Assembly (NCBI GenBank): GCA_009697815.1
Contig: WLRQ01000006.1
Location: 1-64,000 of the forward strand
DNA length: 64,000 nucleotides
Origin: Actinomycetota bacterium
Lineage (GTDB): Bacteria; Actinomycetota; Actinomycetes; S36-B12; CAIYMF01
Direction: 5' to 3'
Shown here in pieces: positions 2,810-52,635 of the stretch; positions within the stretch are counted from its first letter, which is position 1, and each line of letters opens with the position of its first letter. A model generated the notes under the pieces. The model was given only the letters and a program-made list of their open reading frames with translations. It had not been told where the DNA came from and searched no databases. The position numbers and the translations under genes were made by a program.

Positions 2810-2859
2810 CGCTGCGTCGGTGGCGAATTCCCTGAGTGGCGCCCGGATATGAGCGCCAC

Positions 2860-4347
2860 ATGACCGATATCGAGTTCATCGATCAGACCCTGCGCGACGG
2901 CCAGCAGAGCCTGTGGGGTCTGCGCATGCGCGCCTATCACGCGGCGGGGGCCTTGCCCCATATCGACCGTACGGGCTTCCAGGTCGTCGACCTCACCGGC
3001 GCGGGCATGTTCACGGTCCTGCTGCGTCTCCTGGGTGACGACCCGTGGGCCACCACCGACTTCATGATCAAGAATCTTCCGCGCAGTACGACGCGGTCTG
3101 CCATCCGCACGCTGTGCATCATCGGTTTCGGTTTCACCCCCGATTCCGTCATCGACCTCTGGACCCAGACCCTGGCCAAGCACGGGATCGGCAGTTTTTG
3201 GCTCTTCGACTGCCTGTACGACATGGCGGTGATGGAACGTGCGGCGCGGGTGGTCCACGACGCCGGTGCGGTTCCCGTGCCCGCGATCATGTACGGGCTC
3301 ACCGGGGTCCACGACGATGCGTTCTTCGCCGAGCGGGCACGGCAGATGGCCACCTGGCCCGGGGTCACCTCGATCTACGTCGAGGACGCCGCGGGTGTTC
3401 TCAAGCCCGAACGTGCGCGCACTCTGCTACCCGCGATCCGTGCCGTCACGGGCACGATGCCCCTCGAGATCCACTGCCACAACACCACCGGCCTGGCCCA
3501 GCACAACTACATCGAGGCCATGAAGGCCGGTTTTACGGTGTTGCACACGGCATCGCGCCCGATGGCCAATGGGCCGTCGCTGCCCTCCACCGAGGCGATG
3601 GTCTCGATCGTCGAGCACATGGGGTTTCGCCACCGGCTCGACACCACGCAGTTCGCTCCGGTCGAAGAGAACTTCATCTGGGCCGCGAAGGATGCGGGCT
3701 ACCCGCTCGGACGCATGGTCGAGTACGACCCGAGGATCTACGACCACCAACTCCCCGGCGGCATGACCGGGACGTTGAAGAACCAGCTCGCACTCAATGG
3801 CCTGAGCCACCGCTGGGACGACGTGCTCGCGGAGATACCACGCGTGCGAGCCGAACTCGGCAGCCCGATCATGGCCACCCCGTTCTCGCAGTTCGTGGGC
3901 ATCCAGTCGGTGCTCAACATCGTCACCCCGGAGCGCTACTCGCTCGTGCCCGATGAGGTGATCCAGTACGCGATGGGCCACTTCGGGCCCGTGCCGAGTC
4001 CGATCCATCCCGATGTTCTCGACCGGATCATGGCCGCCCCGCGCGCCGCCGCTCTCGCCGGGTGGACCCGCCCTCAGCCCACCCTCAAGGAGATTCGCGC
4101 CCAGTTCCCCTCGGGGACGAGCGATGAAGAGCTGCTGCTGCGTTATATGACCTCCAACGAGGAGGTCGACACCATGCTGCGCGCCGGGCCGATCCGCACC
4201 GATCCTCGGCGGTCAAGCTCATCGATCCTGGCGAGCATCACGGAACTCGTGGCCGAGGCCAAGGGATCTCGTCCCGTGTCCGTCCGCAATGAGCACTTCG
4301 CCGTCCAGCTCGGGTCGCCGGTCAGCGCAGGACTAGGGGAAGGGTGA
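2860..4347 (+). CDS. HMGL/carboxyltransferase-like TIM-barrel enzyme
   Basis: 495-residue protein resembling the carboxyltransferase subunit of pyruvate carboxylase, oxaloacetate decarboxylase alpha and transcarboxylase 5S, without a biotin domain. It begins with the metal-site motif DQTLRDGQQS and has HCHNTTG for the second metal ligand pair. Where carboxyltransferases carry the carbamylated lysine (KDMAG motif), this protein reads E-D-A-A-G, so biotin-dependent carboxyl transfer looks unlikely and an aldolase or lyase role is possible. The gene for a 2-keto-4-pentenoate hydratase-like protein overlaps its stop (GTGA), which would fit a hydratase-aldolase pair. ATG 2860 is chosen because homology begins there; GTG 2836 is an alternative. 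Confidence 0.72.
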   Translation: MTDIEFIDQTLRDGQQSLWGLRMRAYHAAGALPHIDRTGFQVVDLTGAGMFTVLLRLLGDDPWATTDFMIKNLPRSTTRSAIRTLCIIGFGFTPDSVIDLWTQTLAKHGIGSFWLFDCLYDMAVMERAARVVHDAGAVPVPAIMYGLTGVHDDAFFAERARQMATWPGVTSIYVEDAAGVLKPERARTLLPAIRAVTGTMPLEIHCHNTTGLAQHNYIEAMKAGFTVLHTASRPMANGPSLPSTEAMVSIVEHMGFRHRLDTTQFAPVEENFIWAAKDAGYPLGRMVEYDPRIYDHQLPGGMTGTLKNQLALNGLSHRWDDVLAEIPRVRAELGSPIMATPFSQFVGIQSVLNIVTPERYSLVPDEVIQYAMGHFGPVPSPIHPDVLDRIMAAPRAAALAGWTRPQPTLKEIRAQFPSGTSDEELLLRYMTSNEEVDTMLRAGPIRTDPRRSSSSILASITELVAEAKGSRPVSVRNEHFAVQLGSPVSAGLGEG

Positions 4348-5123
4348 CCGGTATGGATGCCGCGTCCATGTTGTACGAGGCCGACCGCGACCTCGAGCCG
4401 ATTGCGGCCTTCGCGAGTTCGGCTCTGGTGAGCGACCCCTATGCGGTGCAAGCCGATTTCTTCTCGCGTCGCTCACAGCGCGTGGGCAGTGCCCCCGCGG
4501 GGTACAAGGTCGCACTCACCAGCCCGCAGGCCCAGGTAGCACTCGGGTCCACTGAGCCGGCTAGTGGGCGGTTCCTCGCTGTTGATGTCGTCCCCTCGGG
4601 TTCGACGATCGATCTCGCCGAGAGATTCTCGCCGATCCTGGAAGTCGAGCTCATCTTCCGTGTTCGCCAGGATCTGCCCCTGTTCGCGTCACTTGATCAG
4701 GTGGCCCAGGGGTGCGACGTGGCGGCGGGGCTCGAGTGCCCTGACAGCAGGTACCGCAACTGGTTCGGTGGTGAATTCGCCGCACTCGCCCTCAACGACC
4801 TCATCGCCGACAACTGCCTCGCGGGGTTCGTTGTCGTGGGCGAGACGTGGCTGCCTGCCTCGAGCCTCGACCTCCCCGCTGTCACCGCCTCCCTCGTTCA
4901 CGACGACCAGGTGATCGCCAGCGGAGTGGCCACGGCAGTGATGGGGAACCCGCTGCTCGCGGTGGTCTGGCTCAGTGATCAACTCGCCAGGAACGGCGAG
5001 ATCCTCACGGCCGGAACCGTCGTGTCCGCGGGCACCTTGACTGGGCCCGTGGTCGCCACTCGTGGCACCACCAGAAGTGAGTTCAGTGACGGGCTGGGCC
5101 AGGCATTGGTCCGATTCGTGTGA
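4344..5123 (+). CDS. 2-keto-4-pentenoate hydratase / FAH-family hydratase
   Basis: 259-residue protein of the MhpD/fumarylacetoacetate hydrolase superfamily. It has the GYKVALTS segment, the acidic metal-site stretch around EVELIF, the conserved LECPDSRY segment and G-NPLLAVVWLSDQLA near residue 210. Family members hydrate 2-hydroxypenta-2,4-dienoates or decarboxylate related oxo acids at a divalent metal after ring cleavage. The GTG start overlaps the stop of the upstream HMGL-like gene by 4 bp, so the two are translationally coupled. No extradiol dioxygenase or ring hydrolase is visible nearby, so the role in aromatic meta-cleavage is not assured. Confidence 0.82.
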   Translation: MTGMDAASMLYEADRDLEPIAAFASSALVSDPYAVQADFFSRRSQRVGSAPAGYKVALTSPQAQVALGSTEPASGRFLAVDVVPSGSTIDLAERFSPILEVELIFRVRQDLPLFASLDQVAQGCDVAAGLECPDSRYRNWFGGEFAALALNDLIADNCLAGFVVVGETWLPASSLDLPAVTASLVHDDQVIASGVATAVMGNPLLAVVWLSDQLARNGEILTAGTVVSAGTLTGPVVATRGTTRSEFSDGLGQALVRFV

Positions 5124-5175: not shown

Positions 5176-6348
5176 ATGGCAGGGCCTGCGCGACTTCGTA
5201 AGGTGCATTCGGTCGAGGAGATTCACGACATCGCCCGTCGTCGACTCCCGCGCACTGTGCACGACTTCATCGAGGGCGGCGCCGAGGATGAACTCACCAT
5301 CGGGCGCAACCGCAAGGCCTTGCAGGACTTGAGATTCGCACCTCGCACGTTGGTCGATGTCTCCACGCGGAGCCAGGAAACCACCCTGCTCGGCACCCCG
5401 GTGAGCTCGCCGATCGTTCTTGCACCCGTCGGGCTGGCCGGACTCGCCCATCCCAGTGGTGAGGTCGCGGCGGCGCGAGCCGCCTCCGCTATGGGAGTGA
5501 TCTCAACACTTAGTTCGTCAGCGTCGTGGAGTCTTGAGGATGTTGCTGGGTCGAGCACCGGCCCCAAGTGGTTCCAGCTCTACATCTGGCGCGACCGCGA
5601 CCTCACCCGGCAGGTCATTGAGCGAGCGCGCGCGGCGGGCTACCTCGCGCTGTGTGTCACGGTCGATGTGCCGGTCAGCGCGCGGCGCCAGCGCGACCTG
5701 CGCAACGGGTTCGTGATTCCGCCGCGGCCTCGGCTGCGGCAAGCCGGCGATCTCGTGCGCAATGCGGGTTGGTTCGCCCGCCTTGCCAAGAGCGAGCTAT
5801 CCGGTCACGGGCTGGGGATGGCCAATTTCACGGCAGAGCACCTCGGCGTGCGTGATCGACTCCACATGTTCGATCTTGTCAATGAACTCTTTGACCAGAG
5901 CGTCACCTGGGATGACGTCGCGTGGCTCAAGAGTGTGTGGGGCGGCCCCGTCGTGATCAAGGGCGTGATGACGTCCGAAGATGCCCGCCGGGCCGTCGAT
6001 TCAGGTGCCGACGCGGTGTGGGTGTCCAACCACGGGGGGCGCCAGCTCGACGGGCTCAGTGGCACAGCCGAGGTACTGCCCGGTGTCGTGGCCGAGGTGG
6101 CCGGCCAGGCCGAGGTCTATCTTGACGGCGGTGTGCGCCGCGGCAGCGATGTCGTGAAGGCGTTGGCCCTCGGGGCCCGTGCCTGCATGATCGGCCGACC
6201 TTATGTCTACGGCCTCGCTGCCGGAGGGCAAGCAGGTGTCGAACGGGTACTCAGCCTGATGCGGACCGAGATCGACGTCGCGATGGCACTGCTGGGCCGG
6301 CCCACGCTGGAGTCACTCGACGAGACGGCCCTCACCTCGCACCGTTGA
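5176..6348 (+). CDS. FMN-dependent alpha-hydroxyacid oxidase/dehydrogenase
   Basis: 390-residue TIM-barrel flavoprotein of the lactate dehydrogenase/glycolate oxidase family. The signature SNHGGRQLD (about 281-289) carries the active histidine and arginine, and FMN phosphate contacts are seen in DGGVRRGSDVVKALALGA and GRPYVYGLA. It would oxidise an L-2-hydroxy acid to the 2-oxo acid. A GGGAG ribosome site precedes ATG 5176. It lies 52 bp behind the hydratase gene, probably in the same operon, and ends 19 bp from a convergent gene. The paralogous mycofactocin maturase MftD is considered unlikely because the canonical hydroxyacid motif is kept and no other mft gene is here. Confidence 0.86.
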   Translation: MAGPARLRKVHSVEEIHDIARRRLPRTVHDFIEGGAEDELTIGRNRKALQDLRFAPRTLVDVSTRSQETTLLGTPVSSPIVLAPVGLAGLAHPSGEVAAARAASAMGVISTLSSSASWSLEDVAGSSTGPKWFQLYIWRDRDLTRQVIERARAAGYLALCVTVDVPVSARRQRDLRNGFVIPPRPRLRQAGDLVRNAGWFARLAKSELSGHGLGMANFTAEHLGVRDRLHMFDLVNELFDQSVTWDDVAWLKSVWGGPVVIKGVMTSEDARRAVDSGADAVWVSNHGGRQLDGLSGTAEVLPGVVAEVAGQAEVYLDGGVRRGSDVVKALALGARACMIGRPYVYGLAAGGQAGVERVLSLMRTEIDVAMALLGRPTLESLDETALTSHR

Positions 6349-6367: not shown

Positions 6368-6865
6368 TCAGGCGGGCGAGGCGAGCTCGAACCAGAAGTC
6401 CGTGACCTGACCGATCGGATTGTCCGAGAAGCGCACCTGGATCGGTGTGCCCGTGGTGATCAGCTGCGTCGCCTTCGTGACGTCGGTGAGGTCGAGGCCC
6501 TTGAGGTAGCCAACGACCGCGGTGTCGGCGCCGTCGAGCCGGGCATACGCCAGCACATATGGCGGGTCCACGAGCATGCCCGGGAACGCCTCGTAGACGA
6601 TCGTGAACATCTCCAGGACGCCGCGGTGACCCACCTCGACCCAGTCAGTGGTGGGCTCGTGGCAGCGATCGCAGAAGGATCGCGCGGGGAATAGGGCCCT
6701 CTCGCACGTCGGGCAGCGACGACCGAGCAGCTTCTTGTCCTTGAGCCCGGCCAGGAATGCGCCGACGGTCTGGCCGAGGGCGTGACGGTAGGACAAGTCC
6801 CAGGTCTGCTCGAAGAACGCCGGTGCGGACGAGGTCGCTGCGTTGTCGAACGGGGTCGTGGTCAC
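6368..6865 (-). CDS. Zn-ribbon OB-fold protein (DUF35), thiolase partner
   Basis: 165-residue DUF35 protein. The zinc ribbon is C51-x2-C54 and C65-x2-C68, followed by an OB-fold (about 75-160). Such proteins form complexes with thiolase-like enzymes, as in the BbsAB benzoylsuccinyl-CoA thiolase, the Ltp2-ChsH2 aldolase and PhlACB. The GTG start overlaps the stop of the upstream thiolase-like gene (GTGA), so co-translation with that partner is likely. An N-terminal extension of about 25 residues precedes the helix before the ribbon. It is last in a tight four-gene minus-strand unit. Confidence 0.86.
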   Translation of the reverse strand: MTTTPFDNAATSSAPAFFEQTWDLSYRHALGQTVGAFLAGLKDKKLLGRRCPTCERALFPARSFCDRCHEPTTDWVEVGHRGVLEMFTIVYEAFPGMLVDPPYVLAYARLDGADTAVVGYLKGLDLTDVTKATQLITTGTPIQVRFSDNPIGQVTDFWFELASPA

Positions 6866-8058
6866 GTTGCGATCTCCTCGAGATGATTGGCCAACACCAT
6901 AGATGCGTAGAACTGGTGGTCGCCGCCGATGGCTGTTGCCAGCCCGACGTTGGCGCCCTCGACCTGCCGCGCATCTGCGCGTCCGGTGACTTGGAGTGCG
7001 ACCTCGGCGGCTCTGACCAGGCCGGTGACGGCGATGGGATTGGTGCAGAGGGTGCCGCCGGAGGGGTTCACCACGGTCGTGCCGCTTCCCAGGGCGAACT
7101 CCCCGTCGGCGATGCGCCGGAATGACTCACCAGGCGCGCACAGCCCGGCCGCCTCGATGACGTGCATCTCGACGGAGGAGAACGGGGCGTAGAGCTCGGC
7201 CACGTCGAGCTGCGCCGAGGGGTCAGTGATCCCGGCCTGCGCGTAGGCACGCGAGATCGCGATCGCGAGGGCTTCTGCGTCGGCGTGGTCTCCGACGGCG
7301 CGGGGGCCGACTCGATCACCCATCCAGAATGTCTCGCTGTTCTGGCCGATTCCGCGGATCCATGCGACGGGTCGGCCTGAGCGTTTCGCGCGTTCCTCGC
7401 TCATCAACACGACCGCGGCCGCGCCCGTGGAGGAGGGACACAGATCGCCCAGCTTGAGGGGCCAGGAGATGAGTCGGGTGGCGAGAACGTCGTCTTCGGT
7501 GATCTCCGCTCGCAGGTGCGCGTTGGGGTTTCGTGATGCGTGCCTGCGGTTCTTGACGGTGATGCGTGCCATGTCACGTTCGTCGGCCCCGTACTTCGCG
7601 TTGTAGCGCTGGGCCGACATCGCGAGCATCGTGATTGTGTTCAGCGGGTAGAGACGTTCGTAGGCCACGTCCCACATCTTGTTCAGGACCGACTGTGCGG
7701 AGTTCGACTCCGACACCCGGTCGGCTCCGGCCACCAGGACCACGTCGAACATGCCCGAGGCCACGTGCATGTAGCCCGCCTGCACTGCACTGAGCCCGGT
7801 GGCTCCGCCGGTGTTCACGCGCATGAATGGCTTGCCGTGTGCGCCCAGGGCCTCGACGCACCAACGCTCGCCATTGCCCACGCCGATCAGCGCATCAGGT
7901 GCGAGCGGGAAGACCACGGCGTCGATGTCGGCCATCGTGACCCCGGCGTCGGCGAGGGCGAGTGTTGCGCCCTCGCGAACGAGTTCGGGGTACACGACAT
8001 CGGTTCGTGTCTTGACGAACGGTGTCTGGCCGGTACCGACGATGCCGACGTTGCGCAT
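6862..8058 (-). CDS. Thiolase-like protein, catalytic residues degenerate
   Basis: 398-residue thiolase-fold protein of the SCP2/acetyl-CoA acetyltransferase type. The loop that normally carries the nucleophilic cysteine reads VNTGGATG (81-88) with Gly where Cys is expected. The C-terminal NPSGG motif is kept but the usual GHP histidine region reads TNP, and the final C-x-G is absent. Classical thiolysis is therefore unlikely; aldolase, acyltransferase or complex-forming roles are possible. It overlaps the next thiolase-like gene by 1 bp (TGATG) and the DUF35 gene by 4 bp, suggesting a three-protein complex. Confidence 0.82.
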   Translation of the reverse strand: MRNVGIVGTGQTPFVKTRTDVVYPELVREGATLALADAGVTMADIDAVVFPLAPDALIGVGNGERWCVEALGAHGKPFMRVNTGGATGLSAVQAGYMHVASGMFDVVLVAGADRVSESNSAQSVLNKMWDVAYERLYPLNTITMLAMSAQRYNAKYGADERDMARITVKNRRHASRNPNAHLRAEITEDDVLATRLISWPLKLGDLCPSSTGAAAVVLMSEERAKRSGRPVAWIRGIGQNSETFWMGDRVGPRAVGDHADAEALAIAISRAYAQAGITDPSAQLDVAELYAPFSSVEMHVIEAAGLCAPGESFRRIADGEFALGSGTTVVNPSGGTLCTNPIAVTGLVRAAEVALQVTGRADARQVEGANVGLATAIGGDHQFYASMVLANHLEEIAT

Positions 8059-9191
8059 CAGGACACTCCCTCGGGGTCGGAGGTGAACAGGACCACGGTC
8101 GCGGATTGACCCGCGAACCCGTTGAGCGCGGCGCCCACGGCACTGCGCGGACGGGGAGTGAGCTGGACGGCCCCTGCATTGCCACGGATCTGCTGCGCGG
8201 CGGACAGCAGGCGCATGAACCCGGCGGCATTGCCGGGGTTGGCGGGAAGGTTGCCTCCCGAAGGATTGACCACAGGTGCTCCGTCGGGCGTAGCAGAACC
8301 GCGGGCTGCCACGGTGGCGCCAAGGCCGGGGCCGGCCAGGCCTAGCGCCTCACATGCGGCGAAACTACCGATGGAACTGATCTCTTGGACTTCGACGAGA
8401 TCGACGTTGTGCGCTCGACCGTCACCGAGCGCCATCACCGCGGCCTCCTCGAGTGCCGCGAACGTGGAGAGGTCGCGGTCAGCAAGCTCATAGGACGAAC
8501 TGATCCAGCCGACGCCGTTGACCCACGCGGGAGTGTGGGCGTTGGTGACCTCGCCTGGGGCGGCAAGGACGACCGCGGCCGCGAGATCGCAGCCGCGCGG
8601 CAAATCATGCACGGCGAGCGGCCACGCGACCATCGCGTCTCCGTCGCTCACCGGGGTGGTACCGACCGCCGCGGTGGCGGCACTCTCGCGTGCCGCGCGC
8701 ACGGCGGCTACGTCGGCGGGGTCGAGCGCGTACTTCGCGCAGTAGGCGCTGGCCTGCAGCCCGGCGGCCGCGGGGGTTGTCATACCCAACGGGCGCAGCA
8801 GGAATGGCTCGGCCGAAAGCCTGTCGGCGTGGGATGGGTCGGTGCCTTCGGACTCTTTGCTCCAGACCACCACGAGGATCCGGCGAGCCTGCCCCGCGAG
8901 GATCCTCAGACATGCGTAGGCGAAGGCGTGCTCGCCCGCGGACGCGATCGTGGTGACATCGCGACCGACTCCGCCTGCGGCGCCGTTGGTCACCATGCTC
9001 TCGATGACACGGCCTTCGACCTGGTCGGACGTCGACAGCACGACGGCATCGATGTCCTCAATCGTGAGGTTCGCATCGAGAAGTGCGCCCCGCGCAGCCT
9101 CGAAGATCATCTCTTCGAGGCTCTGGTCGAAGACCTGGCGACGCACGGGTGTGTGGAAGGCGCCGATGACGGCTGGTCCTCCGTCGAGCAT
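8058..9191 (-). CDS. Second thiolase-like protein, more divergent
   Basis: 377-residue thiolase-fold protein with the NPSGG landmark (VVNPSGGNLPANP) near the C-terminus. The nucleophile loop reads TTIASAGEHAF, without the expected cysteine, and the GHP motif is ANP. It probably acts with the adjacent thiolase-like and DUF35 proteins as a heteromer. Stop-start overlaps of 1 bp on both sides (with the CoA ligase and the other thiolase-like gene) show one translationally coupled unit. Function is inferred from fold and context only. Confidence 0.78.
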   Translation of the reverse strand: MLDGGPAVIGAFHTPVRRQVFDQSLEEMIFEAARGALLDANLTIEDIDAVVLSTSDQVEGRVIESMVTNGAAGGVGRDVTTIASAGEHAFAYACLRILAGQARRILVVVWSKESEGTDPSHADRLSAEPFLLRPLGMTTPAAAGLQASAYCAKYALDPADVAAVRAARESAATAAVGTTPVSDGDAMVAWPLAVHDLPRGCDLAAAVVLAAPGEVTNAHTPAWVNGVGWISSSYELADRDLSTFAALEEAAVMALGDGRAHNVDLVEVQEISSIGSFAACEALGLAGPGLGATVAARGSATPDGAPVVNPSGGNLPANPGNAAGFMRLLSAAQQIRGNAGAVQLTPRPRSAVGAALNGFAGQSATVVLFTSDPEGVS

Positions 9192-10852
9192 CAGGTGCCC
9201 TTCTTGGTAGTGGTGTTCTCCGCCGAATCCCGAAGGGCGCGTCGGCTGAGCTTGCCGGTATCAGTCTTTGCCAACTCGTCCACGACGATGATTCTCGCAG
9301 GGACCTTGTAACTGGCCAGACCAGTGCGGCAGTAGGTAATCAACGCGTCAGCATCGATTGTGGCGCCCGGGCGGGGAACGACGAAGGCCACGACGATCTC
9401 GCCCTTGAGTCGATCAGTGGCACCCACCACGGCAACCTGGTCGACGCTGTCATGGGTGACCAGGAACTCCTCGACGTCGGCGGGTGCGACATTAATGCCC
9501 GAAGTCTTGATGATATCCGAGGCTCGGGCGGCGAAATGTATCCAGCCGTGGTCGTCGAGGTATCCGAGGTCGCCCGTCTTGTAGTAGCCGTCCGCAGTGA
9601 ACGAAGTGCGGGCGTGATCGCCGAGGTATCCGGGCGTGACGTAGCCGGTCACCTCGATCTCGCCCACATCCCCGGTGCTGAGCGGGGTGCGCGTCTCGGG
9701 ATCGACGATCCTCACCGTGACACCCGGAAGCGGAGGCCCCTGGCCGTGGCTGCGGTGCTCCAGCGCCATGTCGTGGGGTGTGACGCAGCAGTTGCCGTAC
9801 ACCTCGGTGGCGCCGTAGACATTGCAGATGCCCTCGATGCCCAGATCCTGCGCGGCCATGAGGAGATCGTCGGCGGATCCGATCATGGCCCCGGTGCGCA
9901 ACGATCGAATCCGGGAGGAGTCCGACCCCAACTTCTCGTGGAGCGCGTAGATCAAGGTCGGCAGCAGATACGCAGCGGTGCAGGCCTCGCGTTCGATGAC
10001 GTCGATGGCCGCCGTCACGTCGAACTGCTCCTGGAGCACGAGAGTTGCTCCGTGCGTGAACGTGGCCATCAGTGCATTGGCACATCCGAAGCTCCAGAAC
10101 AGCGGTGAGCTCAGCCACACGCGGTCCTGCTCGGTGAGGCCGAGGCGTCCGCCGATATTGAATCCGTTCTCGATCATCCCGTGATGAAGAAGCGGAACGG
10201 CTTTCGGGCGCGCGGTCGAACCGGAGGTGTACAGCACCACCGCGGCTGCTGCGGCCGACTCGAGTCCTTCGTCGCCTGGCACCGGACCGTCGGCGAGGCC
10301 TTGTGTCACCCAGTCCGGGTAGGGGATCACCCCCCGCGGTCGCGCATCGGGGGAGTCCAGCCCGTCATCAAGCATGACGACCGCGCGCAGTGACGGGAAG
10401 CGCGCGCTCTGCCAGGAACCGGGTGCAGCGGAGGCGATGTCGGGGACTGTTGCGAGAAGGTCATCGACGAAACGTCGACGCCCGTGCGAGGCCATGAGCA
10501 CCAGCACTGCGCAGTCGGCTTCCTCGACGAGAAGTTCGAACTCGCGCGGCGCAACCCAGGTATTGATGGCATGGACGGTCGCCCCCACCTCGGCAGCGCC
10601 GAAGAGGGTCTCGAGCCATTCGATCCGATTGCTCATGAGCAGCCCGACGCGGTCGCCGCGTCGCACTCCGAGCGAGCGGAGAGCGGTGGCGACGGCAAGC
10701 GCCCTTGTGTGCAGTGCGCCGAACGTCGTGGCACCGTCCGCATGCACGACCGCGGTGGCGTCGCCGCGACGCTCGGCGAGCTCGCCGAGAAGATCACTGA
10801 GGGTGCGGCTGCGCGGTCGAATGAACGGCGCCCTGGTGACGTCGTTGCTCAC
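9191..10852 (-). CDS. Acyl/aryl-CoA ligase (AMP-forming)
   Basis: 553-residue adenylate-forming ligase with complete motifs: phosphate loop LYTSGSTARPKAV (about 210-222), VYGATE, the YKTGDLGYLD hinge region and C-terminal KTDTGKLSRRAL with the catalytic lysine. It should activate a carboxylic acid to its CoA thioester at the head of the operon with two thiolase-like proteins and DUF35. Overall similarity is to the benzoate/cyclohexanecarboxylate/fatty-acid ligase group; substrate cannot be assigned. GTG 10852 has GGGAGG about 9 nt upstream. Confidence 0.88.
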   Translation of the reverse strand: MSNDVTRAPFIRPRSRTLSDLLGELAERRGDATAVVHADGATTFGALHTRALAVATALRSLGVRRGDRVGLLMSNRIEWLETLFGAAEVGATVHAINTWVAPREFELLVEEADCAVLVLMASHGRRRFVDDLLATVPDIASAAPGSWQSARFPSLRAVVMLDDGLDSPDARPRGVIPYPDWVTQGLADGPVPGDEGLESAAAAAVVLYTSGSTARPKAVPLLHHGMIENGFNIGGRLGLTEQDRVWLSSPLFWSFGCANALMATFTHGATLVLQEQFDVTAAIDVIEREACTAAYLLPTLIYALHEKLGSDSSRIRSLRTGAMIGSADDLLMAAQDLGIEGICNVYGATEVYGNCCVTPHDMALEHRSHGQGPPLPGVTVRIVDPETRTPLSTGDVGEIEVTGYVTPGYLGDHARTSFTADGYYKTGDLGYLDDHGWIHFAARASDIIKTSGINVAPADVEEFLVTHDSVDQVAVVGATDRLKGEIVVAFVVPRPGATIDADALITYCRTGLASYKVPARIIVVDELAKTDTGKLSRRALRDSAENTTTKKGT

Positions 10853-10964: not shown

Positions 10965-11930
10965 TCACCCGAATGTCACACCGAACTTCACGTGGCCGGG
11001 TGTTGCCGAGCGCGCCGCCTCGATCGCCGAGGTGAGCTCGGCCAGCGGCCACAACTTCGTCGTGATCAGCCCGGTGTCGAAGGCTCCGGTGCGAATCGCC
11101 TCCAATGCCTCGCGGAAGGACGCGTGACCGGGCTCGGCCTGCGCATCCCAGCAGAAGTCGACCTGGGGCTTGCGGCGGAAGAGCACCTCGAAGGGGATCG
11201 TCATCTCGGCGCCTTCGGGCATCCCGAACATGCCGATTCGCCCCTCGATCTGGACGCAGTGGATTGCCTGGACGCGGGTGACGTCCTTGCCCGCCGCGTC
11301 GATGACCAGGGCCGCGCCGCCGTCGGTGATCTCGTTCACCACATCGATGACAGCGTCGCCCTCGGCAATCACCGTGACCGTGGCGCCCATACGCGTCGCG
11401 ATTTCGAGACGCTCCGGGTGAGGGTCGGAGACGATGATGGTGTCGAATCCGGCGCGAGCACACAGCCAGGTGAAGTACAGCCCCACCGGGCCAGATCCGA
11501 GGATCACCGCGGCACCCGTGCCGGGCCCACTCCAGAATCGCTTCATGCCGAAGATCACGGTGCCCAATTGCTGGGCGATGATCGCAACGGCGGGTTCGGT
11601 GCCGGGGGGCAGCAAGATCACCAGTGAGCTCGGGAGGAGTTGGTACTCGGCGAACCCGGCGGCGTAGATCATGTTGGGCACGGCGAGGACTAGGTCGCCC
11701 ACGGCGAACGCGGGGTCCGAGCTCTCGGTGACAACGGACACCGACTCGTGTCCGGGGTATCCGGGCCGTTGGGGTTCGGACAGGCCGAGGTCGTACACGG
11801 CGTGAACATCGCTGCCGCACACGGTCGATACCAGGTTGCGGATCAGGACGAATCCCGGTTCGGTCACCGACGGAATCTCGATTTCGGTGGTGACGAACTC
11901 TCCTGAGCGCATCAGCAGCCCAGCCTCCAC
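10965..11930 (-). CDS. Zinc-type alcohol dehydrogenase (MDR), short form
   Basis: 321-residue MDR protein. The catalytic zinc region is visible as STVCGSDVHA (about 35-44) and PGHES; the four-cysteine structural zinc lobe is missing, which explains the short length (about 350 is usual). The Rossmann motif is VILGSGPVGLYF and the adenine-ribose acidic residue follows in VSDPHPERLE. It probably oxidises an alcohol or polyol with NAD(P). GTG 11930 follows AAGGAG at 5 nt. Its stop is 112 bp from the ligase operon; its start is 50 bp after the ThDP enzyme stop on the same strand. Confidence 0.82.
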   Translation of the reverse strand: MEAGLLMRSGEFVTTEIEIPSVTEPGFVLIRNLVSTVCGSDVHAVYDLGLSEPQRPGYPGHESVSVVTESSDPAFAVGDLVLAVPNMIYAAGFAEYQLLPSSLVILLPPGTEPAVAIIAQQLGTVIFGMKRFWSGPGTGAAVILGSGPVGLYFTWLCARAGFDTIIVSDPHPERLEIATRMGATVTVIAEGDAVIDVVNEITDGGAALVIDAAGKDVTRVQAIHCVQIEGRIGMFGMPEGAEMTIPFEVLFRRKPQVDFCWDAQAEPGHASFREALEAIRTGAFDTGLITTKLWPLAELTSAIEAARSATPGHVKFGVTFG

Positions 11931-11980: not shown

Positions 11981-13636
11981 TCAGCGCTCAAAGGCTCCGG
12001 CGAGCCAGGAGGCGAGGACGTTCTGGGTGATGTGGCAGTCGACGAGGAGGGGGCCCTCGCACGCGGCGAACCGGTCGCTGATCGCGGCGAGCCCAGCCAC
12101 ATCGAGCACGGTCATCGACGGGATCCCGAACGTCTCGCCGAGGGTCTCGAATGAGGGATTGTCGAAGGTGGCTGCCACTATCGGCAGGTTCCACTGGCGC
12201 AGCATCTGCAACTCGGAGCCGTAGGCCCCGTCGTTCATCACGATGATGATCATTCGCGGCTGAAGGCGCGCCACCGTGTCGAGATCGGGCAGGCTCATCA
12301 TGAGCCCGCCGTCACCGACGAAGAACACGGTGGTGAGATCGGGTCGCGCGAGCGAGGCGCCGATCGCGACGCCGATTCCGCTTCCGACGGCGCCGAAGTC
12401 GACCACGGGGAAATACCGGGCTTCCGCGCCCGTCGCCAGGAACGTGCTGGAGAAGCCGAAGAAGTGGCCCACATCAGTGACGATCTGACGATTGTGGGGG
12501 AGTACATCGCCCAGCGTGACCATCACCGAGCGAGGGTCCATCGCCTCAGGCTCACTGTTGTCGGTGAACTCCTGCTCGACGGAGAACTCCCGCAGCAACG
12601 TGGTGATCGCCTCGGTGCGGAAGGCTTCTCTACTCTCGCCGAGCGCGGTCACTGCCTCGAGGAGTTGGGCCGCGATCGCCGTCGCATCGCCCTCGAGGTC
12701 GACGTCGGCTCGGCGCCGGTTGGCGCCGGGTGCCACATCGACATCACAGCGAATAAGAGTGACGCGGTCGGAGAACAGCGAGCCCTTGAGGGTCGTGAAG
12801 TCATTGAGACTGGCACCAAGTGTCAGGACGACGTCGGCGGTGTTGATAAGCGAGATCCCTTGGTTGGTACCGAGGGAGCCCGCGATGCCGATGTCGTAGG
12901 GATCGTCCCGGAAAAGGCCCTTGGCCGGCAGGGTGGTGGCCATGAGTGCGCCGACATGCTCGCCTAGCCGCCGCAGAGTCTCGCCAGCGCCCGATCGCAT
13001 GGCGCCTCGACCGGCGACGATGAGAGGTCGGTGCGCGCCCATGAGAAGTGCAGCAACCGCGGCGATGCCCTCGGCCGAGGCGCCGCGCGGCTCGGGCGCG
13101 GAGTCGTCGGTGTCTTCGCGCTCGACGTCGACATCCCAGGGCTCCCATTCACGGGTCTGGTGGTCGAGCGGGAAGTTAACCGCGACCGGGGCCGACAGCG
13201 CGCGTGCCATGGCGAAGGCCTTGCGCACGTCGGTGTGGATGGTCGTCGGATCGTTCGCCCAGATCACTGGCACACCGGCCGCACCGAGCATGGCGTCGTG
13301 GTCGATGTCCTGCGGCCAACCGCGTTGAACTTCGGCGACATCGCCGAGGAGGAGGACTAGGGGAGAACGTGCCTTGCGCGCGGTCACGAGGGCCGTCATG
13401 GCGTTGGTGAGGCCGGGCCCTTGGGTGACTGTGCAGACACCGACGTTGCCGGTGGCGCGTGCGTAGCCATCGGCCATGCCGATACCGCCCGCTTCGTGGC
13501 GGGAGGTGTGGAAGGGGATGTCGAGCTCGCTCGTGAGGTAGGTGATGAGCGTCATGTTGCCATCGCCCATAAGCCCGAAGACGCGATCGACGCCTTCCTC
13601 AGCAACGATGTTGCATGCGACCTCGGTAAGTCTCAT
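11981..13636 (-). CDS. ThDP-dependent enzyme (acetolactate synthase-like)
   Basis: 551-residue thiamine-diphosphate enzyme with the full three-domain layout: N-terminal pyrimidine-binding domain with the activating glutamate E48 (RHEAG), a central domain, and a C-terminal domain with the GDGG-to-N magnesium motif. Relatives include acetolactate synthase, benzoylformate decarboxylase and oxalyl-CoA decarboxylase. It lacks the length and context of IolD. ATG 13636 has AAGGG upstream; a 19-residue in-frame extension has no ribosome site. It is divergent from a 2-hydroxyacid dehydrogenase, suggesting chemistry on a 2-oxo acid. Substrate unknown. Confidence 0.82.
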   Translation of the reverse strand: MRLTEVACNIVAEEGVDRVFGLMGDGNMTLITYLTSELDIPFHTSRHEAGGIGMADGYARATGNVGVCTVTQGPGLTNAMTALVTARKARSPLVLLLGDVAEVQRGWPQDIDHDAMLGAAGVPVIWANDPTTIHTDVRKAFAMARALSAPVAVNFPLDHQTREWEPWDVDVEREDTDDSAPEPRGASAEGIAAVAALLMGAHRPLIVAGRGAMRSGAGETLRRLGEHVGALMATTLPAKGLFRDDPYDIGIAGSLGTNQGISLINTADVVLTLGASLNDFTTLKGSLFSDRVTLIRCDVDVAPGANRRRADVDLEGDATAIAAQLLEAVTALGESREAFRTEAITTLLREFSVEQEFTDNSEPEAMDPRSVMVTLGDVLPHNRQIVTDVGHFFGFSSTFLATGAEARYFPVVDFGAVGSGIGVAIGASLARPDLTTVFFVGDGGLMMSLPDLDTVARLQPRMIIIVMNDGAYGSELQMLRQWNLPIVAATFDNPSFETLGETFGIPSMTVLDVAGLAAISDRFAACEGPLLVDCHITQNVLASWLAGAFER

Positions 13637-13732
13637 CACGCACCCTTTTACGACGAAGTAGCAGCCCTGTGAACCTACTGACAGGCTCCTCAATCGTCAA
13701 GGACCAGAGGGGGTTTTGGCCACTCCGCGTTG

Positions 13733-20982: not shown

Positions 20983-22302
20983 ATGTCTTCGACAGTCACA
21001 GTTGCGTGCGGTGCGGGATTCGCTGGCGATCGGATGGAGCCTGCGGTCGACTTCGCAACCGCTGAGGGCATCGACGCCATCGTGCTCGAGTGTCTCGCGG
21101 AGCGCACGATGATCGCGGGTCTCCTTGAGCGCGAAAAGAACCCGAGCCTCGGTTACGACGCCCGGTTGCGCCCTCGTCTTTCCCCCATCCTTCCGCTCAC
21201 TTTCCCGCGTCGACGCGCTGTGATCACCAACCTCGGGTCGGCGAACCCGTCGGCGGCCGCGGCTGAGGTCGCCCGTCTGGCAGGTGAGATGGGCCTCGCG
21301 GGATTGCGCGTAGCCGCCGTACTCGGTGATGACATCGTCGATCGGGAGTCACACGTCGAGTGGCAGGACGACTCGGTGCTCGAGGACGGTGGCCGATGGC
21401 TCGGGGTACATGCTTATCTCGGTGTCGACCCGATCGCAGAGGCTCTTCGCCAAGGTGCGGACGTCGTCATCACCGGGCGCACCACGGATTCCTCGCTGTT
21501 CGCGGCTCCGGTCGTGGCCGCGTTCGGTGAGGGCGCACTCGCTGGCGCTCTCACCGTGGGGCACCTGCTCGAGTGCAGTGGTCAACTCACCGGAGGAAAT
21601 GTCGCCGATTCACGAGAGTCGGGGCTGACCGCGGCCGAGTATGCCGATCTGGGGTTCCCCTGGGCTCGGGTCAGCGCAGACGGCTCCGCTGAGTTCGGCG
21701 TGCTCGACGGCAAGCCAGCACGGCTCGACCCGCTCGGGGCCACATTGCAGTTGTTCTACGAGGTACACGATCCGCACGCCTATCTGACGCCCGATGCCAT
21801 CCTTGATTTCACCGGTATCGCCTTTGATCCGCTGGCTCCCAACCGGATCCGCATGTCAGGGGCGCGCTCCTCCGGCATTCCCGAACGGCTGAAGGCAGTG
21901 GGCTTCCGGCAGGCCCCCGGCTGCATCGCCGACCTCGAGATCTCCTACGCGGGCCATGGGTGCCGGGAGCGGGTACTCATTGCTGCCGAGACGATGAGGA
22001 TCAGGCTCGAGGCGATCCCCGGGGTCAGCCGATTCAATCTTGACTTCGTCGGTATCAACTCGGTTCTGGGCCTCGGGGTCGACATCCCGTGGGAGGGATC
22101 TGAGGTGCGGCTCCACGTCGGTGCCGTATGCGACTCCGACGCCACCGCCCGATCGGTCGAGGACGAGATCTACGCGCTGACCCTCAGCGGGCCAGCCGGA
22201 GGTTGCGGGATTCGCTCCGAGCGACGAGCGCACCTCTCGGTCGAGAGCGGGCTCATTGCTCGCGATCAGGTCACGACCTCGTTGGGCTGGTACACCGCAT
22301 GA
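20983..22302 (+). CDS. AtuA family protein (acyclic terpene utilization, DUF1446)
   Basis: 439-residue AtuA-family protein. It shows the family's N-terminal glycine-rich segment (GAGFAGDRMEPA), the VITGRTTDSSL stretch and TGGNVAD near residue 200. AtuA is needed for citronellol/geraniol catabolism in Pseudomonas, but its reaction is not established. GGAGG precedes the ATG by 10 nt. Its stop overlaps (ATGA) a small gene that encodes what is often the C-terminal domain of longer AtuA proteins, so the two likely form one complex. Confidence 0.85.
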   Translation: MSSTVTVACGAGFAGDRMEPAVDFATAEGIDAIVLECLAERTMIAGLLEREKNPSLGYDARLRPRLSPILPLTFPRRRAVITNLGSANPSAAAAEVARLAGEMGLAGLRVAAVLGDDIVDRESHVEWQDDSVLEDGGRWLGVHAYLGVDPIAEALRQGADVVITGRTTDSSLFAAPVVAAFGEGALAGALTVGHLLECSGQLTGGNVADSRESGLTAAEYADLGFPWARVSADGSAEFGVLDGKPARLDPLGATLQLFYEVHDPHAYLTPDAILDFTGIAFDPLAPNRIRMSGARSSGIPERLKAVGFRQAPGCIADLEISYAGHGCRERVLIAAETMRIRLEAIPGVSRFNLDFVGINSVLGLGVDIPWEGSEVRLHVGAVCDSDATARSVEDEIYALTLSGPAGGCGIRSERRAHLSVESGLIARDQVTTSLGWYTA

Positions 22303-22607
22303 AGATTCGAGAATTGGCCGCGGCCCGAGCCGGCGACAAGGGGAGCACCCTCGACATCACCCTCGTGGCTTTCAACCAGCAGGCGTACGACACCCTGGTC
22401 GAGGCACTCACTGAGGAGTACGTGGGGCAATTGATGCGCCGATCGGTGCCCGGGCCTGTCACCCGCCATCTCGTGCCCGGCCTGCTGGCGATCAAGTACG
22501 TGATGCCTGAGGCGCTCGAAGGCGGCATTTACGCCTCCGTGCGGGCGGGGATTCACTGGCAGAAGGCAGCAATTTGGCTGCTGCTCGATGAGGAAGTACC
22601 GCAGTGA
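22299..22607 (+). CDS. AtuA-related small protein
   Basis: 102-residue protein equal to the C-terminal domain found fused in longer AtuA proteins: it has the ARAGDKGSTLDI start, a VPGPVTRHLVPGLLAIKYV core and an alanine/glycine-rich middle. The ATG overlaps the AtuA stop by 4 bp and its own stop overlaps the next gene's GTG by 4 bp. It is short but clearly real because of overlap, codon use and family match. Role: partner of AtuA, reaction unknown. Confidence 0.82.
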   Translation: MKIRELAAARAGDKGSTLDITLVAFNQQAYDTLVEALTEEYVGQLMRRSVPGPVTRHLVPGLLAIKYVMPEALEGGIYASVRAGIHWQKAAIWLLLDEEVPQ

Positions 22608-37902: not shown

Positions 37903-39093
37903 ATGGACCCTGCACCCTTTGCCGGCGTCACCGTCGTCGATCTAGGGCAGATCTACAACGCGCCTTATGCGACGTTGCTGCTGGCCCTCGGTGGAGCCAA
38001 TGTCATCAAGGTTGAGCCGCTCACGGGCGAGAACCTCCGAGGCAGGGGCCGGGTCAAGGGAGCCGGGGCCCCCTTCGCGATGCTCAATTCCAATAAGAAG
38101 GCTGTCACTCTCAACCTCAAGGACCCCGAAGGTGTGGCCCTCCTCGAGCGCATGATCGTCAAGGCTGATGTGTTCGTGGAGAACTTCCGGCCCGGCGTCA
38201 CCGAGAAGTTGGGCATTGGAGCCGATCACCTGCACGCGATCAACCCTCGGCTGATCTACGCCTCGGGCTCGGGTTACGGCTCGACCGGCCCCTATCGCGA
38301 CCTGCCGGCCATGGACATCACGATCCAGGCGATGTCAGGCATCATGTCGGTCACCGGCTACCCCGACCGTCCGCCCGTCAAGGCTGGCCCGGCCATGAGC
38401 GATTTCATGGGGGGTATCCACCTCTTCGGTGCGATCACCTCGGCCCTCTACCAGCGTGAGCGGACCGGGCACGGCACCACCGTTGAGGCCGCGATGCTCG
38501 ATGCGGTCTACCCGAGCCTGATGTCGAGCCTGGGGCTCTACTTCGGAAGTACGGGAGAGGTTCCCAGCCGCACCGGCAATAGGCACTCCGGGCTCGCCGA
38601 GTCGCCGTACAACGTCTACCCCGCCAGCGACGGTTTCGTCGCGCTGATCTGTGTGAGCGAAAGCCACTGGCGCGCGTTGACCTCCCTCATGGGGGTGCCC
38701 GAACTCGCGACGGATCCTCGCTACATCGATCGCGTCGCACGTGTCACGCGGATGGACGAGGTCGACGCGATGGTCGGTGAGTGGACTGTGCGTTACACCA
38801 AGGACGAGGTCGTGGAGATCCTCAGCGAGGCTGGTGTGCCGAGCGCACCCGTTCGGGAGATCTCCGAGGTCGTGGCCGACCCTCACTTGCGGCAGCGGGG
38901 AATGCTCACCGAGATCGACCACCCCGAGCTCGGCCCGCTGGTCGTCCCCCACAGCCCCATCCGGGTCGGCGACTTCTATGCCCCGCTCGCCCCGAGCCCC
39001 ACCCTTGGTCAGCACAATGCCGAGATCTACGGGGACTGGCTTGGGCTCGACGTCGACACCATGGCCGAGCTGAAGAGCAAGGGCGTGATCTAG
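37903..39093 (+). CDS. CaiB/BaiF family CoA transferase (class III)
   Basis: 396-residue family III CoA transferase. The N-terminal VVDLGQIYNAPYA, the KVEPLTG segment, GYGSTGPY and the acidic residue of MDITIQAMSG (about 137-146), the usual acyl-anhydride Asp, are present. It can move CoA between acids, giving a second activation route beside the ligase, or act as a racemase relative. GGGAG precedes ATG 37903, 4 bp after the hydratase stop. Confidence 0.9.
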   Translation: MDPAPFAGVTVVDLGQIYNAPYATLLLALGGANVIKVEPLTGENLRGRGRVKGAGAPFAMLNSNKKAVTLNLKDPEGVALLERMIVKADVFVENFRPGVTEKLGIGADHLHAINPRLIYASGSGYGSTGPYRDLPAMDITIQAMSGIMSVTGYPDRPPVKAGPAMSDFMGGIHLFGAITSALYQRERTGHGTTVEAAMLDAVYPSLMSSLGLYFGSTGEVPSRTGNRHSGLAESPYNVYPASDGFVALICVSESHWRALTSLMGVPELATDPRYIDRVARVTRMDEVDAMVGEWTVRYTKDEVVEILSEAGVPSAPVREISEVVADPHLRQRGMLTEIDHPELGPLVVPHSPIRVGDFYAPLAPSPTLGQHNAEIYGDWLGLDVDTMAELKSKGVI

Positions 39094-40220
39094 TGCGCGG
39101 CACTGCGGTGATCGCGGGTATCGGCCAGACTGCCCAGGGCAAGATGCCCGGTCGCACGACCACCTCCCTCAACGTCGAGGCGTGCCGCAAGGCCCTCGAC
39201 GATGCGGGCATCGAGAAGTCGATGGTCGATGGCCTGTTCGTGAAGTACCCGACCTCCGAGCATCGCTCGATGTACGCGCAGACGATGGCCGAGGCGCTTG
39301 GGATTCAGCCTCGTATCGGCGGTGTCTGGGACCAAGGCGGCGCGGCGCCCTCCTCGATGATCTCGTTCGCGGCCATGGCGATCGAGCAGGGTCAGTGCGA
39401 GGTAGCCCTCGTGACCATCGCCGACAACCCGCGAACCGGGACTCGGCAGGCCTACGAGCGAGGCTGGGGCGATGACGCCGTCTTCGGGTGGTTTGGCACC
39501 CCAGCGGGCTACGCCATGGTCGCGCGACGACACATGGAGCAGTACGGCACCAAGCATGAGCAACTTGGTGCGGTCGCGCGTGCGTGTCGTCGCCATGGGG
39601 CCAACAACCCCGACGCGCAGCTGCGTCGACCCCTGACGGCCGAGGCCTATGAGGCCTCAAGCTTTGTCGTCGATCCGCTCAGGCGCGACGACTGCTGCCT
39701 GATCTCAGACGGTGGCGCGGCGGTGGTCGTCATGAGCGCCGAGCGCGCGCGCCAGCTCGGGGTCGGCGCTCCGGTCCCGATCCTGGGGTTTGGTCAGGGA
39801 CAGACCTCATGGGAGGTGGCGCAGCGGCCCGATCTCACCTCGACGGCTGCGGCCGTGTCGGCTCGCACCGCCTTCGCGATGGCCGGGCTCGCGCCCAAGG
39901 ACATTGATGTGGCCCAGCTCTACGACTGCTTCACCATCACGGTGATTCTCACGCTCGAGGATTACGGCTTCTGCGCCAAGGGCCAGGGCGGCCCCTTCGT
40001 CGAGGATGGGCGCATTGAGATCGGGGGCGACCTTCCGATCAACACCAGCGGCGGTCTCCTCTCAGAGTCGGGAATGCCGGGGATGCAGTTGGTCACCGAG
40101 GCAGTCCGCCAGATCCGGGGAACATCCACGAACCAGGTGGCGGGCGCGACGACCAGTCTTGTCAGCAATCAGGGGGGGATCATGCACACCCATTCGACGT
40201 TGATCCTGGGATCGTCATGA
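39093..40220 (+). CDS. Thiolase-fold protein, Ltp2-like aldolase candidate
   Basis: 375-residue thiolase superfamily protein of the lipid-transfer/SCP2 type. The nucleophile loop reads WDQGGAAPSS (79-88) without cysteine, the GHP histidine region reads SGM (326-328) and the last C-x-G reads SNQGG. It keeps LYDCFTITV (276-284), a landmark of steroid side-chain aldolases such as Ltp2. With the DUF35 protein next door, retro-aldol cleavage of a 3-hydroxyacyl-CoA is the best guess, though the tyrosine-containing segment usual near the C-terminus is altered. GTG 39093 overlaps the CoA transferase stop by 1 bp. Confidence 0.8.
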   Translation: MRGTAVIAGIGQTAQGKMPGRTTTSLNVEACRKALDDAGIEKSMVDGLFVKYPTSEHRSMYAQTMAEALGIQPRIGGVWDQGGAAPSSMISFAAMAIEQGQCEVALVTIADNPRTGTRQAYERGWGDDAVFGWFGTPAGYAMVARRHMEQYGTKHEQLGAVARACRRHGANNPDAQLRRPLTAEAYEASSFVVDPLRRDDCCLISDGGAAVVVMSAERARQLGVGAPVPILGFGQGQTSWEVAQRPDLTSTAAAVSARTAFAMAGLAPKDIDVAQLYDCFTITVILTLEDYGFCAKGQGGPFVEDGRIEIGGDLPINTSGGLLSESGMPGMQLVTEAVRQIRGTSTNQVAGATTSLVSNQGGIMHTHSTLILGSS

Positions 40221-40612
40221 GCGAGTTGCCATTGCCGGTCGTGACACCACTCACCGAGCCCTACTGGAAGGGCCTCGAGGAGGGTGAGCTCAGACATCAG
40301 AAGTGCCGTGGCTGCGGACACGTCTGGCTGCCGGCCCGCGAGGAGTGCCCCCGATGTCTCACCGCGGACATCACCTGGGAGGCCTCGAGCGGTCGTGGGC
40401 GCCTTATCAGCTGGGTCATCTACCACCACTCGTCCGACCCTGTGTTCGCCGAGCGGGTGCCCTACAACGTCGCGGTGGTCGAACTCGACGAGGGCGCGCG
40501 CCTGATCACGAACATTCTGGCGCCGAGCGAAGATCTTGCCATCGAGCTTCCGGTGGTAGTGCAGATCGAGCAGGAGTCAGGGTTCTCGCTGCCCCGGTTC
40601 CGACTGGCCTAA
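40217..40612 (+). CDS. Zn-ribbon OB-fold protein (DUF35), partner of the thiolase-fold gene
   Basis: 131-residue DUF35 protein: zinc ribbon C30-x2-C33 and C44-x2-C47, then an OB-fold with the YHHSSDPVFAERVPYNVAVVEL strands. Its ATG overlaps the thiolase-fold stop (ATGA), so it should form a heteromer as in Ltp2-ChsH2. It lacks the N-terminal extension of the DUF35 protein at 6368-6865. Confidence 0.87.
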   Translation: MSELPLPVVTPLTEPYWKGLEEGELRHQKCRGCGHVWLPAREECPRCLTADITWEASSGRGRLISWVIYHHSSDPVFAERVPYNVAVVELDEGARLITNILAPSEDLAIELPVVVQIEQESGFSLPRFRLA

Positions 40613-49356: not shown

Positions 49357-50718
49357 TTAGATCAGCATTTCCCTCATCGGCGGCGATCCTTGGTGGGCGT
49401 GTCGGAGGTGCGATCTCAGGCCGCCGGACCAGTCGACCAGACGGACCCGGATCAGCTCTCCGCGGGTGCCGCCGACCCCGTCGCCGGGAATCTCCGCGAG
49501 ACCATCGGCTGAGAGCAGTGAGCTGAGTGCACCCGATCGATGGAGTCCGACGGACGTGGCAGCGAAGATCTCGCCTGTCCACTGGAGCGAGACGCGGACA
49601 TAGGACACGCGGTCGCCATGGTGGCTGAAGTCCTCCTCGGCGATGGCGGTCACCGTGGGTGCGTCGAGGTCTGCGATCCCGCGCAGCCGAAGGATCGTCG
49701 GACGAGCGAAGAGTTCGAAGGCGACCATGGCGGCGACCGGGTTCCCCGGAAGTCCGATGAACGGCACTCCCTGCCCGCTCGTGGGTGATCGTGGAGGCCG
49801 GTTCAGCCAGCCGATCGCCAATGGCTTGCCCGGCTTCATGCGGACGGCGAGGGACTCGACCATGCCCTCCCGTGAGGCAAGTTGCCCGACGATGTCGTAG
49901 GCCCCGCCTGATGCTCCGCCGGAGGTGACGACGAGGTCGGCAACCTCGAGCAGTTCGGCCATCCGCGCACGAAGCTCCGGCAGCGAGTCCGGTACGGCGA
50001 CCCCTGTCAGCAACTCGCCACCCGCACGTGCCACCAGAGCGCCGAGCGCGAAGCCGTTGGAGTTGAAGATCTGACCGGGGCCGAGTGAGAGCCCGGGCTC
50101 GACGAGTTCGTCGCCGGTCGAGAGCACGGCGATCACCGGGCGTGGCACGACCCGCACATGGGAACGGCCTATCGCGGCGAGCACCGCCACCTCGGACGGT
50201 CCGACCTGCTGGCCGCGCGTCATGAGCAGTGAGCCGGAACGGATGTCTTCGCCAGCACGCCGGATGTTGGTGCCGGGCTCGATTCTGCTCTCGATTCGGA
50301 TCGACGTTGGCGGCATGATCGACAGCGGCCCGGATTGGTCGTCGTCGGCGCCGCACGCCCGAGTCTTCTCGTACTGGATGACAGCGTCGGCGCCCCTGGG
50401 GATCGCCGCACCCGTCATGATCCTGATCGCCGTGCCGGGACGGACCTCCTCATGTGCCACGTAGCCGGCGCGGACATCGCCGACGACGATCAGCTCGCGC
50501 GGTCCGGTGAGGTCGGCGGATCTCACCGCGTATCCGTCCATCGCCGAGTTGTCATAGGAGGGAAGGTGTATGGGCGCAGTTACATCCTCGGCGAGCACGT
50601 GATCGAGTGCGTCACGGATCGGTCGGTCGACTACGTCGAGCGCATCCACGTTGCGCAGGATTCGGGCCAGTGCCTCGTCAGGAGTCACGGTGACCGAGAC
50701 CGCGGCTCCTGGTCTCAC
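49357..50718 (-). CDS. moeA: Molybdopterin molybdenumtransferase MoeA
   Basis: 453-residue MoeA/gephyrin-E-type protein. Conserved landmarks are LPSYDNSAMDGYAVR (about 53-67), GTAIRIMTGAAIPRGAD, GDELVEPG and SGGASGGAYD. It inserts Mo or W into the pterin dithiolene, giving the cofactor used by AOR-type enzymes. Its GTG start overlaps the AOR stop by 4 bp (GTGA), so it is co-translated with the tungstoenzyme operon, which points to a dedicated cofactor-loading copy rather than a general one. Metal choice cannot be read from sequence. Confidence 0.92.
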   Translation of the reverse strand: MRPGAAVSVTVTPDEALARILRNVDALDVVDRPIRDALDHVLAEDVTAPIHLPSYDNSAMDGYAVRSADLTGPRELIVVGDVRAGYVAHEEVRPGTAIRIMTGAAIPRGADAVIQYEKTRACGADDDQSGPLSIMPPTSIRIESRIEPGTNIRRAGEDIRSGSLLMTRGQQVGPSEVAVLAAIGRSHVRVVPRPVIAVLSTGDELVEPGLSLGPGQIFNSNGFALGALVARAGGELLTGVAVPDSLPELRARMAELLEVADLVVTSGGASGGAYDIVGQLASREGMVESLAVRMKPGKPLAIGWLNRPPRSPTSGQGVPFIGLPGNPVAAMVAFELFARPTILRLRGIADLDAPTVTAIAEEDFSHHGDRVSYVRVSLQWTGEIFAATSVGLHRSGALSSLLSADGLAEIPGDGVGGTRGELIRVRLVDWSGGLRSHLRHAHQGSPPMREMLI

Positions 50719-52598: not shown

Positions 52599-52635
52599 CT
52601 GGCTGGCCTCATTTCGACGAGGGGCTGGAGGGTTC

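Follow-up and report, generated by a model that had tools for sequence, protein, structure and literature searches.

Two thiolase-like proteins encoded side by side, neither with the residues expected of a thiolase, raise the question of what reaction such a pair, with the DUF35 protein and CoA ligase that accompany it, could carry out. The genes occupy positions 6368–10852 of the window (the whole stretch of actinomycete DNA analyzed here, 64,000 nucleotides long) and are listed with two upstream neighbors.

Gene run and active-site residues

9191–10852, minus strand: LIG, acyl-CoA ligase (AMP-forming), 553 aa, AMP-binding and AMP-binding_C (Pfam)
8058–9191, minus strand: T2, predicted thiolase-fold partner subunit, 377 aa, Ltp4-side clade, Thiolase_C_1 only (Pfam)
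6862–8058, minus strand: T1, thiolase-fold, probable catalytic subunit, 398 aa, Ltp3-side clade, Thiolase_N and Thiolase_C_1 (Pfam)
6368–6865, minus strand: DUF35, 165 aa, GTG start, zf-ChsH2 and OB_ChsH2_C (Pfam)
10965–11930, minus strand: Zn-dependent MDR dehydrogenase, possible operon member by position (112-bp gap to LIG)
11981–13693, minus strand: ThDP-dependent enzyme, acetolactate synthase/2-hydroxyacyl-CoA lyase superfamily, possible operon member by position only

The four genes had been described as overlapping by 1–4 bp, and the ORF listing and raw sequence bear this out, with overlaps of 1 bp (LIG/T2), 1 bp (T2/T1) and 4 bp (T1/DUF35); they would form one co-translated unit, which we hold to be moderately likely together with the overall explanation to which it belongs. 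LIG retains both the SGSTARPK motif and the C-terminal TGK lysine. Directly upstream of it lies the MDR dehydrogenase gene, with the ThDP gene next, and a distantly similar MDR/ThDP pair is found near the module in locus L087. A functional link to the plus-strand block on the other side (carboxyltransferase-like, 2836–4347; HpaH-like, 4344–5123; FMN dehydrogenase, 5176–6348) was rejected, this block being convergent and absent beside the closest orthologs. Its first protein combines HMGL-like and PYC_OADA regions without a biotin domain and has Glu at the position where pyruvate carboxylases have a carbamylated Lys; strong homologs were found in only 7 of 395 genomes of the class, several of them adjoining BC/BCCP genes and some with thiolase-like neighbors.

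Structurally, the AF2 models of T1 (pLDDT 80, pTM 0.87) and T2 (pLDDT 72, pTM 0.79) had thiolase-fold PDB chains throughout the top 50 matches listed. In an alignment with the SCP2-thiolase 6hsj, archaeal thiolases and Ltp2, T1 has Gly85 at the nucleophile column, which is Cys in thiolases, Tyr290 (YAPF) at the column of the HDCF His, and Asn340 (TNP) at that of the GHP His; Ltp2 likewise has Gly at the nucleophile column, and its Tyr294 aligns with Tyr290. In T2, the nucleophile motif is deleted or altered (IASAGEH), HDCF has become QEIS (Gln at the HDCF column) and GHP has become ANP; the KNR...NPxAH stretch of T1 is missing, and a DxxxGR signature (D56, G60, R61) is conserved in the T2 family. 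The first-pass annotation was therefore right that both folds lack the nucleophile and the GHP histidine. It had also allowed that proper alignment might restore catalytic residues; the thiolase residues stay absent, and an Ltp2-like Tyr was revealed in T1.

These features extend across the family: each of the 26 T1 sequences examined has Gly in the nucleophile position, the thiolase Cys being lost throughout. Position 290 is mostly Tyr, with His in three sequences, Gln in two and Phe in two; in the Gln and Phe cases a Tyr stands three residues on, at 293, so that every T1 has either Tyr/His290 or Tyr293. The second catalytic group of Ltp2 (Tyr344) or Sal (Cys304) has no equivalent in T1, which has Asn340 and Pro292, respectively.

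An acyl-CoA C–C lyase or an acyltransferase complex had initially been suggested as a possibility. A PhlACB/MucABC-like acyltransferase or a retro-Claisen thiolase would fit the PhlC, MucABC and BbsB chains among the fold matches listed, and DUF35-type partners occur in those systems too, but such chemistry runs through a Cys in the active site (PhlC Cys88, cf. the C88S entry 9skm; the Cys of SCP2 thiolase), and T1 and T2 both lack Cys at this column, as do all 26 T1 sequences, which makes this reading very unlikely. The lyase half of the proposal is the part that stands, through Gly for Cys and Tyr for His as in Ltp2 and through the grouping of T1 and T2 with Ltp3 and Ltp4; the acyltransferase half does not, as no subunit has a nucleophilic Cys.

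Relatives and divergence of the subunits

Evolutionarily, the T1 clade (22 rows; 96/96) and the T2 clade (20 rows; 100/99) are sister clades (98/99) in a tree of 51 rows, with actinobacterial Ltp3 inside the former, actinobacterial Ltp4 inside the latter, and Ltp2 and true thiolases outside; the inner branching of T2 is uncertain, with long branches on some of its rows. A second tree placed betaproteobacterial and haloarchaeal pairs in the same two groups, and plasmid-borne pairs occur in Simplicispira suum (a betaproteobacterium), Rhodococcus qingshengii (pLP1) and Haloterrigena turkmenica (a haloarchaeon). One scan of 84,980 species genomes returned ten close T1 relatives (52–78% identical), in Pseudonocardia dioxanivorans, Pseudonocardia sp. 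KRD291, Compostimonas suwonensis, Nocardiopsis sp. ATB16-24 and MAGs, with Ltp3 of Nocardia and Mycolicibacterium at 38–39%. Among the close relatives, T2 lies directly upstream of T1 and DUF35 directly downstream wherever the sequence covers that side, and mycobacterial loci pair T2 and T1 with a double DUF35 and have genes resembling FadD19 and EchA19 close by. Calling the window T2 an Ltp4 by the PRK07937 model was rejected (75–78 bits against a 419-bit cut-off). Ltp3–Ltp4 is the closest known system; the first-pass annotation did not name it and overstated the case in suggesting a new complex, since ltp3, ltp4, DUF35 and fadD19 already occur together in mycobacteria and rhodococci.

Judged from the sequences, the loss of the thiolase residues is old and fixed, since it is common to all T1 sequences and the paired genes are found in actinomycetes, a betaproteobacterium and a haloarchaeon. 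Decaying, non-functional remnants of thiolases would account for the divergence of T2, which is only 27–44% identical to its own relatives and has lost every thiolase motif, but the open frames, the translational coupling, the low dN/dS across species and the ~70% identity of T1 across genera make decay extremely improbable. Moreover, the T2/T1 junction overlaps by 1–17 bp in 14 of the 15 loci measured and Cys is lost in all T1 relatives, so the arrangement is due to neither chance nor decay. By these substitution estimates (dN 0.24 and dS 0.51 for T2; dN 0.10 and dS 0.47 for T1), the rate for T2 is about double that for T1, yet T2 is under purifying selection. T1 and T2 also co-evolve, with distance correlations of 0.96 for T1–T2, 0.96 for T1–DUF35 and 0.55 for T1–LIG (seven loci, pairs not independent). 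The conserved T1 is probably the catalytic subunit, and the fast-evolving T2, its thiolase active site lost, is probably non-catalytic.

The DUF35 partner varies in another way. The window copy has a single C4 zinc ribbon (C-x2-C-x10-C-x2-C, residues 51–68) plus an OB fold; all four zinc Cys are present in it, three are left in loci L086, L087 and L093, and none in L088, L089, L091 and L094. It is single-domain in the window and double in mycobacteria and at a second locus of the same genome, on contig C29.

Two plasmid loci surround the pair with further genes. In Rhodococcus (L124), two acyl-CoA dehydrogenases, two MaoC proteins, T2, T1, DUF35, CaiB and a CoA ligase follow in a row, a gene set as would be expected for a dehydrogenation–hydration–retro-aldol route. 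In Simplicispira, T2-T1-DUF35 is directly followed (L123:9140-10770) by an Ltp2-type thiolase-like protein (YDHF) with its own OB-fold partner, both aldolase types thus standing in one gene run.

Proposed reaction and substrate

In Ltp2 and Sal, the Tyr of YDHF/YDCY is the base (Tyr294 in Ltp2, with Tyr344 as acid; Tyr302 in Sal, with Cys304), and DUF35 forms part of the cleft and shapes it (PMC12329534). Ltp3–Ltp4 has been described as a heteromeric aldol-lyase whose step comes once the C24 branch is carboxylated and hydrated (PMC6678751), an activity that rests on mutants and reviews in the literature consulted for comparison; neither on the biochemistry of Rv3521–Rv3523 nor on thiolases of P. 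dioxanivorans did literature searches yield direct reports. By analogy with Ltp2/Sal and Ltp3–Ltp4, we propose T1 as an aldolase with Tyr290 as its base and T2 as a non-catalytic partner; the best reading, a heteromeric T1/T2/DUF35 retro-aldolase whose substrate is supplied by LIG as a CoA ester, is held with somewhat better than even confidence. Mechanistically, LIG would turn a carboxylic acid into its CoA ester, the T1–T2 pair would replace the usual thiolase homodimer, and DUF35 would dock on T1 and line its substrate cleft. No acyl-enzyme would form on T1; Tyr290, at the position of the Ltp2 base, would deprotonate a β-hydroxyl and so break the Cα–Cβ bond in a retro-aldol step, with the thioester enolate perhaps held by Asn340 and main-chain groups of the Gly84–Gly85 loop, releasing an aldehyde or ketone and leaving a shortened acyl-CoA. 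The part of T2 would lie in structure or specificity, and its conserved DxxxGR loop might extend to the T1 site.

Several points tell against this retro-aldolase: position 290 is not universally Tyr, the second catalytic residue of Ltp2 and Sal is missing, and the closest orthologous operons lack a consistent acyl-CoA dehydrogenase or hydratase to supply the β-hydroxyl. The same site might serve aldol-type C–C formation or another enolate reaction, such as decarboxylation or isomerization, as the upstream ThDP enzyme and the varied operons allow another direction or exact reaction; however, the transporter and ligase context is catabolic, and the characterized DUF35-bound homologs without the thiolase Cys (Ltp2, Sal) are retro-aldolases, so we regard this as unlikely.

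With regard to substrate, membership of the same clades as Ltp3/Ltp4 and the same pairing with DUF35 and CoA ligase would suit the organism's own Ltp3–Ltp4, acting on sterol side chains. Against this, KshA (PF19298), the sole steroid marker tested, had no match in the 93%-complete genome, and no steroid genes were seen beside the orthologs. Orthologous operons hold IclR regulators, a Zn-dehydrogenase, a CoA ligase, a PF04199 cyclase, a CaiB CoA-transferase and transporters of Liv or MFS type; in Nocardiopsis the locus further has the aromatic-ring enzymes LigXa-like Rieske oxygenase and LigB dioxygenase, and members of the Amidohydro_2, HpcH/HpaI aldolase and carboxymuconolactone decarboxylase families occur at other loci. 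Since KshA was not found and steroid genes were not seen beside orthologs, the substrate is probably no steroid; this circumstantial evidence favors a small acid, aromatic-derived or otherwise environmental.

A separate locus in the same genome also argues against the sterol reading, which we consider quite unlikely. Contig C29 carries T2′-T1′-double DUF35-EchA-FadA-cyclase-BCCP, with the double DUF35 as in mycobacteria; its T1′ is ~42% identical to mycobacterial Ltp3, and its pair groups nearer Ltp3/4 than the window pair does. An exact match of 129 bp inside the BCCP gene links the end of contig C77 to the start region of C29 (BCCP 98% identical over 108 residues), and genes for biotin carboxylase, a carboxyltransferase-like protein and subunits of a CoA-transferase come next on C77. 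The two (L010, L113) are likely one long operon for an Ltp3/Ltp4-like pair, a double DUF35, a biotin-dependent carboxylase set and a CoA-transferase, a gene set that fits the published idea of carboxylation, hydration and aldol cleavage and lends support to aldolase chemistry in this family. A third T2-T1 pair lies at the end of contig C13.

Elsewhere in the window, a second thiolase-like/DUF35 pair (39093–40612, plus strand) carries Gly in the nucleophile position, and its YDCF motif resembles those of Sal and TbSLP; with ACAD (35947), ECH (37122), CaiB (37903) and MaoC (40665) as neighbors, the region looks like a single-chain Sal/Ltp2-type aldolase operon. The plus strand also encodes, at 20983–22607, AtuA (acyclic terpene utilization) and a separate AtuA ferredoxin-like protein; a gene for an LLM flavin monooxygenase comes after them. 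On the minus strand, 49357–56275 holds, in an actinomycete, an AFOR-family aldehyde:ferredoxin oxidoreductase (50715–52598), a second protein with a similar start (54344–56275) and MoeA.

Comparison with known systems

Existing annotations call proteins like T1 and T2 acetyl-CoA acetyltransferases, lipid-transfer proteins or thiolases, against which their active-site residues argue. The PhlACB and MucABC acyltransferases share the multi-component logic of thiolase fold plus DUF35, but acyl transfer there is Cys-dependent. Benzoylsuccinyl-CoA thiolase BbsAB and the archaeal thiolase/HMG-CoA synthase/DUF35 complex resemble the window proteins in fold and DUF35 partnership, whereas the archaeal thiolase keeps the Cys and GHP His that T1 and T2 lack. 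Nearer in residues are the steroid aldolases Ltp2–ChsH2(DUF35) and Sal–Shy(DUF35) (6ok1, 9myr), with thiolase fold, DUF35, the Tyr base position and, in Ltp2, Gly at the nucleophile column; unlike T1/T2, they use one thiolase-like protein as a homodimer, T1 lacks their second catalytic residue, and its clade is separate from Ltp2.

The closest comparison is with Ltp3–Ltp4 and its DUF35, described as acting on C24-branched sterol side chains (M. tuberculosis Rv3523-Rv3522-Rv3521; Rhodococcus rhodochrous ltp3/ltp4). Likenesses are the same sister clades, the adjacent pair with DUF35 beside it, a CoA ligase (FadD19) nearby (fadD19 Rv3515c, echA19 Rv3516, Rv3521, ltp4 Rv3522, ltp3 Rv3523; PMC6429209), and an Ltp3-side protein with Gly for the nucleophile Cys and Asn for the GHP His (xNP motif). 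The window system differs in identity (~38–41%), in its single rather than double DUF35, in having its ligase within the overlapping gene run, in its non-steroid surroundings, and in the loss from T2 of the YAPF that mycobacterial Ltp4 keeps. More tentatively, and as a possibility to which we give well under even weight, an ancient duplication may have split the thiolase dimer into a catalytic and a fast-evolving non-catalytic subunit, giving a heteromeric aldolase class widespread in actinomycetes, betaproteobacteria and haloarchaea, here for non-steroid, possibly aromatic-derived acyl-CoAs and with a DUF35 partner able to lose its zinc site. The family offers a compact, non-pathogen system for the poorly characterized Ltp3–Ltp4 aldol-lyase, for the need for two thiolase folds and for the role of DUF35 once its zinc is gone. 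Set beside Ltp3–Ltp4, the genes are conserved and probably encode a heteromeric aldolase, which would be a new non-steroid branch of that kind and not a new kind.
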